From NCBI GenBank assembly GCA_016201265.1, contig JACQDD010000013.1, positions 1 through 50,399 on the forward strand: 50,399 bases of DNA, given 5' to 3'. This DNA is from Terriglobales bacterium. GTDB lineage: Bacteria; Acidobacteriota; Terriglobia; Terriglobales; Acidobacteriaceae. Positions 21,629 through 50,399 of this stretch are shown here, one piece after another. Made by a program: the position numbers and the translations under genes. Under the pieces are notes generated by a model. It ran no database searches. It had not been told where the DNA came from and worked only from the letters and a program-made list of their open reading frames with translations. The first letter of the stretch is position 1, and the number at the start of each line of letters is the position of its first letter.

Positions 21629-22042
21629 ATGAAACTTCTCACCACAGAGTCACAGAGACACAGAGAGAACGAGGAGCGGGATCCTCGAACCGGCCCAATC
21701 ATCGGCGCGGCTATTGAAGTGCACCGCCAACTTGGTCCGGGGTTGCTGGAGTCCGCCTACGAAGAGTGCTTGTGTCACGAACTGCATCTACGCGGGCTGA
21801 CTTTTGAGCGCCAGGTGGACCTTCCGGTCTCGTATAAGGGCTTCCGTCTTGATTGTGGATATAAGATGGACCTGGTCGTCGAGCAACAGGTGGTTCTCGA
21901 ACTCAAGTGTGTGGAAAAACTTCTGCCGATCCACGAGGCGCAGCTTCTCACATATCTCAAACTCTCGGGGAAGCGCGTCGGCCTGCTGATCAACTTTAAT
22001 GTTTCATTACTAACGCAGGGGATCATCAGAAGAGTTTTGTGA
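21629..22042 (+). CDS. GxxExxY family protein (PDDEXK_3-like)
   Basis: GAAIEVHRQLGPGLLESAYEECLCHELHLRGLTFERQVDLPVSYKG...DLVVEQQVVLELKCVEKL. Confidence 0.9.
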   Translation: MKLLTTESQRHRENEERDPRTGPIIGAAIEVHRQLGPGLLESAYEECLCHELHLRGLTFERQVDLPVSYKGFRLDCGYKMDLVVEQQVVLELKCVEKLLPIHEAQLLTYLKLSGKRVGLLINFNVSLLTQGIIRRVL

Positions 22043-22072
22043 TTCCTCTGTGTCTCTGTGACTCTGTGGTGA
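21639..22072 (+). mobile_element. Putative IR-bounded GxxExxY unit (434 bp)
   Basis: Perfect 27-bp inverted repeats 21639-21665 and 22046-22072 (TCACCACAGAGTCACAGAGACACAGAG) enclosing one ORF. Confidence 0.65.
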
Positions 22073-22103
22073 AATAGTTCTTGGGTTCTGAATCGAGGAA
22101 CGG

Positions 22104-27879: not shown

Positions 27880-28027
27880 GGAGCTCCGGCGGGTGGCGGC
27901 CCTTCTGATCGACCTGATTCTCGAGGGGCGCCCGCCGCCACACAAGCATGCGAGATCCTTCGCGGCCAAGAGCGCCGCTCAGGTGACCGCAGCGGGCTCC
28001 CGCTTCGCTCACGCCCGCTAGGCGCGC

Positions 28028-29182
28028 TCACTTCGTCAGCCGGTTGTATTTTTTCAGCACCTCGCGCAGCTTGTCGTGGGGCAGGGCGATGACGGTGCGG
28101 TCGTTGACGCCGGTCATGGTTTCGGCGGCGACCATGGCGTTGATCACCGCTTCTTCCGTCGCCTGCACGGTGGCGAGGAAGAGCGGATCCAACTGGTCGT
28201 TGGGCACCATCTTCAGGTCGTGGATGCCCTTCGGGCTCGCCGCTTCTGGGTTCGCTGTTGAGAAGGCGATGAAGATGTCGCCGGAGCCGTCGCCGGAGAA
28301 GCTGCCGTTGCGCCCGAGCCCAAGAGAAGCTTTGCGGGCGATCCGCTTGAGTTGCGTGGGGATGATGGGCGCATCGGTGGCGACGACGATGATGATCGAG
28401 CCCACGTCATCTTTCCAGACCGTATGCTCCGGAATCTCGCGGCCCACCGGAACTCCTGCGATGCGCAACTGGTCGCGCTGTCCGTAGTTGCACTGCACGA
28501 GCACGCCGACGGTGTAGCCGCCTGATTTGGCATCAAGCACGCGCGAGGCCGTCCCGATCCCGCCCTTGAACTCGTTGCAGATCATGCCGGTTCCGCCGCC
28601 GACATTGCCTTCCTCGACCGCGCCGGTGTGCGCGGAGTCGAGCGCGTGAAAGGCATGCTCGGGCTTCACGTGGAAGCCATTGATGTCGTTGAGATAGCCG
28701 TCCCAGGTCTCGGCGACCACGGGCAGCGACCACCAATAGCCCTCCATGTCGGGCTTGCCGCGCTTGACCTTCCAGGCGATGACCGCGTCGCGAACCACGC
28801 CCACGCTGTGCGTGTTCGTGATCATGATGGGACCATCAACGAAGCCGGAGTCTTCTACCCAGGTGGTGCCGGTCATCTCGCCGTTGCCGTTGAGCGTGAA
28901 CCAGGCGCCGAAAACGGCGTCCTTGGACTCTTTGCCGCGTGGAAGAACAGCGGTGACGCCGGTGCGAACCGGGCCTTCGCCCACCTTCAGTTTGCCTGCG
29001 CCGGAAATGAGCGTGGTGTGGCCGACTTCGACGCCTTTGACATCGGTGATGGCGTTGTTCGGGCCGGGAGTGCCGTCGAAGGGAACGCCGAGATCGCGGG
29101 CACGCGGTTTGGTTTGAGCGAAGGTGAGTGCGGTTGTGCTGACGAGCAGAACGAGGACTTGGACTGAGCGGGATCGGATCAT
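28028..29182 (-). CDS. P1 family peptidase (DmpA/L-aminopeptidase-like), exported
   Basis: RARDLGVPFDGTPGPNNAITDVKGVEVGHTTLI; NEFKGGIGTASR; GRNGSFSGDGSGDIFIAFSTAN. Confidence 0.9.
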   Translation of the reverse strand: MIRSRSVQVLVLLVSTTALTFAQTKPRARDLGVPFDGTPGPNNAITDVKGVEVGHTTLISGAGKLKVGEGPVRTGVTAVLPRGKESKDAVFGAWFTLNGNGEMTGTTWVEDSGFVDGPIMITNTHSVGVVRDAVIAWKVKRGKPDMEGYWWSLPVVAETWDGYLNDINGFHVKPEHAFHALDSAHTGAVEEGNVGGGTGMICNEFKGGIGTASRVLDAKSGGYTVGVLVQCNYGQRDQLRIAGVPVGREIPEHTVWKDDVGSIIIVVATDAPIIPTQLKRIARKASLGLGRNGSFSGDGSGDIFIAFSTANPEAASPKGIHDLKMVPNDQLDPLFLATVQATEEAVINAMVAAETMTGVNDRTVIALPHDKLREVLKKYNRLTK

Positions 29183-29255: not shown

Positions 29256-29396
29256 CTCACCGCAGAGCCACAGAGACACAGAGAAACCCGTCCGAGAAAT
29301 CTCGTCGCAGAGGGATTCTTGTTCCGCCTTTGCAACTCTCGCCGCCGACCGATCTTTACAAATCGAGCATGTCTTTCTCTGTGTCTCTGTGGTGAG
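29256..29396. repeat. ORF-less CACAGAG inverted-repeat element (141 bp)
   Basis: CTCACCGCAGAGCCACAGAGACACAGAGAAA at 29256-29286; CTCACCACAGAGACACAGAGAAA on minus at 29374-29396. Confidence 0.8.
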
Positions 29397-29447: not shown

Positions 29448-29729
29448 ATGGAGAACTGGAAAAAGGCGGCGATCGCGGGATCGATGGGAGCGGCGACGAT
29501 CTTGATGCTGAAAGGGAAGCGTCCAGCGGGAGTGCTGGTGGCGGGCGTGGGGCTGGCGGTGCTGGCATCGGAATATCCCGAAAAGTTTGTGCGGATCCGG
29601 GAAGAGATTCCTTCTTACGTGCGGCAAGGAACGAAGTTTCTCGATCTGGCGATGAAGATCGGGACGAAGATCGGAGAACTGGCGGAGCGGCGGGGGCGGG
29701 CGGTGTTTGAGGAGTTGGGGGAATACTGA
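29448..29729 (+). CDS. Hypothetical protein (93 aa)
   Basis: MENWKKAAIAGSMGAATILML...; internal ATG chosen over the track's longer ORF. Confidence 0.6.
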   Translation: MENWKKAAIAGSMGAATILMLKGKRPAGVLVAGVGLAVLASEYPEKFVRIREEIPSYVRQGTKFLDLAMKIGTKIGELAERRGRAVFEELGEY

Positions 29730-29805
29730 GAGGCGCGAGTAACGAGTCGTCGGGAGAATGCCTGGCAGCCGCACATAACGGTCGGAGTAGGGGTCCTTCG
29801 ACTCC

Positions 29806-29835
29806 GCAAAGCGATGCGCGAGCGCATCGCTTTGC
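29806..29835. repeat. Perfect hairpin GCAAAGCGATGCGC-GA-GCGCATCGCTTTGC
   Basis: 14-bp perfect arms. Confidence 0.8.
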
Positions 29836-29887
29836 TCCGCTCAGGATGACAGATTGGAAAGTGCGCGGATGAAGGCTTGCGCAGACT

Positions 29888-32502: not shown

Positions 32503-32534
32503 ATCACCACAGAGGCACAGAGGTCACAGAGAAG
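32503..32534. repeat. Solo CACAGAG-family repeat
   Basis: ATCACCACAGAGGCACAGAGGTCACAGAGAAG. Confidence 0.75.
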
Positions 32535-49838: not shown

Positions 49839-49865
49839 TCACCACAGAGTCACAGAGACACAGAG
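49839..49865. repeat. Solo copy of the 27-mer GxxExxY-unit terminal repeat
   Basis: TCACCACAGAGTCACAGAGACACAGAG, identical to 21639-21665. Confidence 0.95.
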
Positions 49866-49866
49866 A

Positions 49867-49992
49867 AAGTCAGAAGTCAGAAGGCAGATTGCAGAAGTAG
49901 GACGCCCCGGGTTTGAGTGCTTGGCGATTTTCGTTCCATGTTTACCAATCTTAAGATTTTACTTCTGCAATCTGACTTCTGACTTCTGACTT
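49867..49992. repeat. 33-bp inverted repeats (1 mismatch) around a 60-bp core
   Basis: AAGTCAGAAGTCAGAAG(G/T)CAGATTGCAGAAGTA at 49867-49899 and reverse-complemented at 49960-49992. Confidence 0.95.
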
Positions 49993-50399
49993 GCTCTTGC
50001 AGCTTCATACAACACAATACTCGCTGCCACGCCCGCGTTGAGCGATTCCACTTGCGCGGCCTGTGGGATGACGATGGTTTCGTCCATGTGATGCATGAGG
50101 TCGCGAGGGAGGCCGGCGCCTTCGTTGCCGATGAAGATGGCCAGGGGCAGAGTCCAGGTGGCTTCGGGCAGCGGAGTTCCTTTGTGCGAGGAGGTTGCAA
50201 CCAGGCGCACGCGGCGCTGGCGCAGCAGCGCGATCAGTTCACCGGAGGGGATCTGAAGGAAAGGCAATCGGAAAATCGAGCCCGCCGAGCCGCGGAGAAC
50301 TTTCGCATTGAAGGGGCTGACAGTTCCTTCCGACAGGAAAATGCCGGCGGCGCCGAAGGCTTCGGCGGAGCGGAAGATGGTACCGAGGTTGCCGGGGTC
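49959..50399 (-). CDS. TrmH/SpoU family RNA methyltransferase (5' truncated by window edge)
   Basis: DPGNLGTIFRSAEAFGAAGIFLSEGTVSPFNAKVLRGSAGSIFRLPF; FIGNEGAGLPRDL; VESLNAGVAASIVLYEA. Confidence 0.93.
   Translation of the reverse strand, partial: DPGNLGTIFRSAEAFGAAGIFLSEGTVSPFNAKVLRGSAGSIFRLPFLQIPSGELIALLRQRRVRLVATSSHKGTPLPEATWTLPLAIFIGNEGAGLPRDLMHHMDETIVIPQAAQVESLNAGVAASIVLYEAARASQKSEVRLQK

Follow-up and report, generated by a model that had tools for sequence, protein, structure and literature searches.

A gene-free CACAGAG arm pair from a Terriglobales genome: a candidate member of a small mobile hairpin family associated with the GxxExxY nuclease

What kind of element is a pair of facing CACAGAG arms that holds no gene, and how does it relate to a gene-carrying unit with the same arms on the same contig? 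The question is raised by contig JACQDD010000013.1 of a Terriglobales bacterium (assembly GCA_016201265.1), analysed over a stretch of 50,399 nucleotides that we call the window. An initial annotation had described the gene-free pair as a MITE-like derivative of a 434-bp GxxExxY unit, mobilised in trans.

The element and its copies in the genome

The gene-free, hairpin-like element spans 141 bp (29256-29396), in coordinates and sequence as first annotated. Two facing CACAGAG arms enclose an ORF-less core of 87 bp, and the right arm is shorter than the left by exactly one 8-nt unit, both of which were confirmed (Table 1). Mechanical ORFs from both neighbouring genes extend into or through the element, yet nothing conserved was found in its interior, and a Rfam search of the element gave no RNA family up to E 1, so that a known RNA family was rejected. 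The element is located between divergent genes, with the S58 peptidase on the left and the 93-aa protein on the right, rather than at a 3' end. Just outside the left arm begins a sigma-70-like promoter of the peptidase gene. No terminator-like site was found in the element, and a transcription terminator was also rejected, given the lack of a T-run after the stem and this position.

Table 1. Coordinates of the arms, genes and related features in the window
Feature	Position	Strand	Description
Left arm	29256-29286	+	CTCACCGCAGAGCCACAGAGACACAGAGAAA = CTCACC + CGCAGAG-C-CACAGAG-A-CACAGAG + AAA, three units
Core	29287-29373		87 bp, no gene, no Rfam match, unrelated to GxxExxY gene or to the genome's other cores
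Right arm	29374-29396	-	reverse complement CTCACCACAGAGACACAGAGAAA = CTCACC + ACAGAG-A-CACAGAG + AAA, two units
Gene-carrying member	21638-22073	+	arms 21638-21668 and about 22043-22073 around GxxExxY gene
GxxExxY gene	21629-22042	+	TIGR04256, E 3e-46; PF13366 PDDEXK_3
Left neighbour, peptidase family S58 gene	28028-29182	-	PF03576, E 1e-120
Right neighbour, conserved 93-aa gene	29448-29729	+	adjoins S58 gene in most congeners; no Pfam match
Unpaired arm, same family	32505-32531	+	CACAGAG x3
Unpaired arm, same family	49840-49868	+	beside (GTCAGAA)n inverted pair

In the window, CACAGAG occurs 18 times against 5.8 expected, a count reached by none of 100 shuffles. The assembly comprises 2.93 Mb in 300 contigs and is 76% complete, and in the pattern searches on which the genome-wide counts are based, the motif CACAGAGnCACAGAG (= CACAGAGNCACAGAG) gave 71 matches, compared with 4 for the reversed-pattern control. 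All 20 scored pairs face inward, 19 of them are gene-free, and their cores range from 18 to 161 bp. Facing arm pairs are thus far more frequent than chance would give, and the 141-bp feature belongs to a group of about twenty such elements in its own genome.

Folding of the whole element gives a highly stable stem (-52.7 kcal/mol), and the pairs of this genome mostly occupy tight gaps between co-directional genes, according to a rough reading-frame score. These two points favour an alternative in which the arm pairs are host hairpins kept for an RNA or DNA role, like REP or ERIC sequences within operons, that GxxExxY units adopted as landing or regulatory sites. We consider this alternative unlikely, and the position of the 141-bp pair between divergent genes already argues against it.

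Other repeats are also present. A second inverted tandem family, (GTCAGAA)n, was observed at window positions 49866-50000 and at loci L035, L038, L049 and L062, nested in or beside CACAGAG arms. Close to the element, positions 29784-29851 hold a dispersed repeat (CCTTCGACTCCGC...GCTCAGGATGAC) related to dozens of others in the genus, and positions 27976-28038 another short dispersed repeat with matches in many congeners.

The arms and the GxxExxY gene

The gene-carrying member in the window has a type-A GxxExxY gene, a clear member of the GxxExxY/PDDEXK_3 family (TIGR04256, PF13366), with the same arms as the 141-bp element, which thereby has both facing TTMACC-(RCnRAG)n arms and a cognate gene in its own genome. 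The arm consensus is TTMACC-RCnRAG-n(1-2)-RCnRAG-n(1-2)-RCnRAG-RA, facing, around a variable loop. In the genus, 19 of 24 genomes have one to five GxxExxY matches, and nearly all the copies that we read sit between inverted arms, whose repeated word differs from clade to clade: CACAGAG (A), CACGGAG (B), CGCAGAG (C), CGCCGAG (D), CACGAAGG (E), CACAGGG (F), and others. Broken or partial copies of the gene were seen in G077 (C23), G078 (C43), G079 (C51), G018 (C38), G029 (C10) and G038 (C71); G029 and G038 carry many arms, yet only such broken or partial copies.

The association extends well beyond the genus. Both arms were found at 88 of 139 GxxExxY loci, and at least one arm at 120, compared with none and 25, respectively, of 1566 control placements of 350 bp elsewhere in the same loci. 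A search across GTDB species, with every locus verified by tblastn using the protein from the window, revealed GxxExxY in many phyla, including Chloroflexota, Planctomycetota, Verrucomicrobia, Cyanobacteria, Bacteroidota and methanogenic archaea, whereas no match was found in phages and only seven plasmid records had one. In this cross-phylum set, archaea included, usable flanks were available for 79 loci, and in 67 of these an inverted arm pair scores at least 15 (0.8% for shuffles). The arm type also tracks the protein, requiring 39 changes on the protein tree against 63.8 when shuffled (minimum 57), and the arm unit in the cross-phylum set requires 26 against 34.2, which is not expected if the arms were host hairpins taken up by the gene. 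In summary, arms and gene belong together across phyla.

GxxExxY is present in 139 of the 396 genomes of the phylum sample, namely in 40 of 45 with arms and 99 of 351 without (p = 2e-15), and in 28 of 29 genera with arms and 52 of 182 without, in tables that were counted by hand and that include some arms belonging to the gene units; the p-values, including that for co-occurrence in 61 genomes of the family (Fisher p = 6e-4), overstate independence because the genomes are related. This co-occurrence, together with the arms around GxxExxY in many phyla, indicates that the link between the 141-bp pair and the 434-bp unit is real, and it reaches far beyond the window, the arms being those of the GxxExxY unit both here and across phyla. 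Five of the 45 arm-carrying genomes have no GxxExxY.

The gene-free pairs follow the gene type in part. In the genus, A-type pairs track A-type genes: short type-A pairs are present in 3 of 3 genomes of the genus with a type-A gene and in 4 of 21 others (p = 0.017, by hand, with gene copies partly typed). Arm and gene types also match in two further genomes: G052 has 63 A-type arms and an A-type gene, and G051 has 62 arms, none of them pure A-type, and a B-type gene. Short B-type pairs are commonest in G062 and G076, both without GxxExxY, and G075 has A-type pairs, but the one gene found there is of type C. Such persistence of pairs in genomes that lack GxxExxY is in line with a host role. A simple dosage of the gene in trans was rejected, because the genus shows no correspondence between B-type pairs and B-type genes; perhaps the gene has disappeared from G062 and G076, or perhaps it is dispensable. 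Mobilisation of gene-free pairs in trans by GxxExxY is plausible, and the evidence from genomes is mixed.

Between GxxExxY orthologues (two sets), third codon positions differ by 48-54%, whereas the heptamers are near-invariant and the spacer bases vary, so that the arms are clearly constrained, as would also be expected of host hairpins. In 107 elements with an 8-nt period, agreement between the two arms lies far above that of shuffled pairs at the unit bases and only slightly above it at the spacer bases, and in 78 of 103 loci the commonest unit is identical in both arms, compared with 17 when shuffled. Spacer bases matched as stem pairs are little above shuffled (0.51 against 0.41; type A, 0.43 against 0.34), less than would be expected of stem bases, which speaks against host hairpins and led us to reject selection for pairing over the whole stem. 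The combination of constant heptamers, free spacers and matching units in the two arms is read as recognition of each heptamer by a protein, although concerted change of the arms by conversion or recent insertion may be another source of the matching.

Cyanobacteria are known to have STRR sequences, degenerate heptamers repeated in tandem in non-coding DNA that in some cases build the stems of hairpins. The arms could likewise be short tandem repeats grown by slippage and inverted by template switching, immobile as units, with GxxExxY acting on the hairpins in repair. They do consist of tandem degenerate units of 7-9 nt in variable number, and comparable pairs are built from further heptamers (GTCAGAA, AATTTGT, GATTnnT), in part within the same gaps. 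In our view this is improbable, since slippage would copy the spacer base too, and here the repetition does not cover the whole unit, the heptamers being constant and the spacer base free. Furthermore, in contrast to STRR, the heptamers stand in facing pairs and bracket a specific nuclease gene, and slippage leaves unexplained both the presence of one heptamer family around one gene family across phyla and the matched arms around a 350-bp gene.

The GxxExxY protein, which has no recognised transposase or integrase domain, was modelled with AlphaFold2 (pLDDT 90.5; the N-terminal residues 1-14 are arm-encoded and of low confidence). No sequence relative was found in the PDB, and the best structural matches (Foldseek) are the Cas4-like SSO0001 and lambda-type exonucleases, with high probability and weak E-values (best 2.8e-3). 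Residues D81, K93, Q105 and Y109 are invariant in 43 sequences and E91 is nearly so, a pattern that presumably corresponds to a PD-(D/E)XK nuclease with a QxxxY motif. These features fit a predicted PD-(D/E)XK nuclease with a Cas4/lambda-exonuclease-like fold. In the parts of the literature available to us, GxxExxY appears only as an annotation, with no flanking repeats or function mentioned, and neither the arm sequences nor the name PDDEXK_3 were found; the hairpin family with GxxExxY thus seems little-noticed, being not described in the literature found.

Cores, target sites and turnover

The annotation had the element derived from the 434-bp unit, and here our results differ. No match was detected between the 87-bp core and the GxxExxY gene, and an all-against-all comparison of cores within the genome gave a single match, C28/C230, through the nested second repeat family, which is also the only exception to the lack of copies with an identical core. 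No core is common to the copies in this genome, and in pairs from other genomes of the phylum, compared by eye, the cores are unrelated and similarity lies mainly in the arms. With no detectable similarity of the core to the gene or to other cores, descent from the 434-bp unit by internal loss is unsupported, and a deletion derivative of the gene unit was rejected.

Direct flanking repeats were searched at any offset in 156 elements, with no consistent excess, that is, no target-site duplication. Empty sites were found. The S58 peptidase and 93-aa genes adjoin throughout the genus, and the gap between them, 268 bp in our genome, is element-free and 90-185 bp long in 13 of the 18 congeners read, among them the sister species G070 (98/99 support; ...GCATCGAAGCGCGGA|GGGCTGGTTTACAAT...). 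At the site of the gene-carrying member, congeners G067, G072, G074 and G081 have neither gene nor arms. The elements thus differ in presence between sister species, and both the change of one gap between sisters and the occurrence of armed gene units at sites that are arm-free in relatives argue against host hairpins.

The description as MITE-like therefore stands in part: the facing pairs, the empty sites and the arms shared with the 434-bp unit agree with it, whereas the elements are not a homogeneous family, their loops are unrelated and target-site duplication is lacking. Two hallmarks of MITEs are thus missing, and the term itself does not fit. An ordinary MITE, derived by deletion from a DDE insertion sequence and mobilised by some unrelated transposase, would account for inverted ends without a gene, many dispersed copies and presence or absence between relatives; with no shared core, no target-site duplication and GxxExxY, not a transposase, as the gene found between such ends, this explanation is very improbable and was rejected.

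The same gaps seem to be used repeatedly. Five congeners (G064, G075, G079, G080 and G062) have other inserts between the S58 and 93-aa genes, and those of G064 and G079 start with arm-like sequence (ACCACCGGG, ACCACAGGG), so that this gap is apparently reused. In the C196 gap, beside a gene that by eye is yajQ-like, the insertion point is common to our genome and G070, and the flanks are 80-87% identical; arm type and number of units nevertheless differ, and no similarity was detected between the cores (0.58 against 0.57 shuffled). Other congeners have A, B or C arms there, or nothing. It therefore appears that elements come and go, or are exchanged for others, at sites that are used more than once. 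In the C28 gap, the cores of two congeners are still recognisable as relatives (0.66, with shuffled values of at most 0.63), and their arms are near-identical.

Further arrangements were observed at individual loci. In the C28 gap, where our genome has CACAGAG arms, facing pairs of a third heptamer family (AATTTGT/GTAATTT) occur at L289, L291, L292 and L294 (G061, G082, G066 and G065). L101, L106 and L117 represent one gene neighbourhood with GxxExxY units of different arm types (L101 compared with the other two), and in L101 an arm of one type persists as a remnant outside the other, which suggests replacement. Loci L341-L344 (G341) contain long tandem arrays of nested arms, far denser than in our genome.

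Relation to known systems and proposed mechanism

REPINs are REP doublets associated with RAYTs, the REP-associated tyrosine transposases (Bertels and Rainey 2011, PMC3116915). The elements studied here share with them short hairpin-forming inverted doublets, over-represented in many dispersed extragenic copies, a linked single-gene partner, and gene-free, non-autonomous copies. They differ in that the gene between the arms belongs to TIGR04256/PF13366 and is a predicted PD-(D/E)XK nuclease, not a Y1 tyrosine transposase; in that the arm is a row of tandem CACRGAG heptamers with free spacer bases and not a folded REP palindrome tagged GTAG or CGTC; and in that the loops are not common to the copies. 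By analogy, the element would work most like a REPIN with a different enzyme, whose action we infer.

On balance, we favour as probable, with some reserve, that the 141-bp feature is a gene-free member of a small mobile hairpin family, similar to REPIN/RAYT and built around a PD-(D/E)XK nuclease. In its gene-carrying form, the GxxExxY nuclease gene lies between facing arms; the nuclease would recognise the repeated heptamers, probably while the hairpin is single-stranded or cruciform, cut at or near the arm ends, and the element would spread by a route without target-site duplication. The gene-free pairs would then either be mobilised in trans or remain behind from such events, in the way that REPINs relate to RAYTs. 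Movement itself is suggested by the patterns of presence and absence; the absence of identical cores, the mismatches in G062, G076 and G075, the five arm-only genomes, the lack of target-site duplication, the weak E-values of the fold matches and the lack of a recognised transposase or integrase domain in GxxExxY count against this reading. A broader version, which we put forward as a tentative and somewhat doubtful possibility, is that a Cas4/lambda-exonuclease-like nuclease, without a transposase, moves heptamer-row hairpins in bacteria and archaea, each clade reading its own heptamer and leaving gene-free hairpins with ever-changing loops in many phyla.

A role of such nucleases in DNA mobilisation has a parallel in the Rpn recombination-promoting nucleases, PD-(D/E)XK proteins once annotated as transposases and linked to DNA mobilisation (PMC5350276, PMC10327210). 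Unlike GxxExxY, they form a different Pfam family, PF04754. We know of no association of Rpn nucleases with tandem-heptamer arms.

The arms provide a concrete candidate substrate for the GxxExxY nuclease, with a natural set of matched and mismatched arm-protein pairs. The pattern points to a little-noticed family of small mobile elements in many bacterial phyla and some archaea. Should the arms prove to be moved by this nuclease, DNA mobilisation would have to be added to the activities of a fold that is seldom grouped with the transposases, and a type of intergenic hairpin common in environmental genomes would have an explanation.
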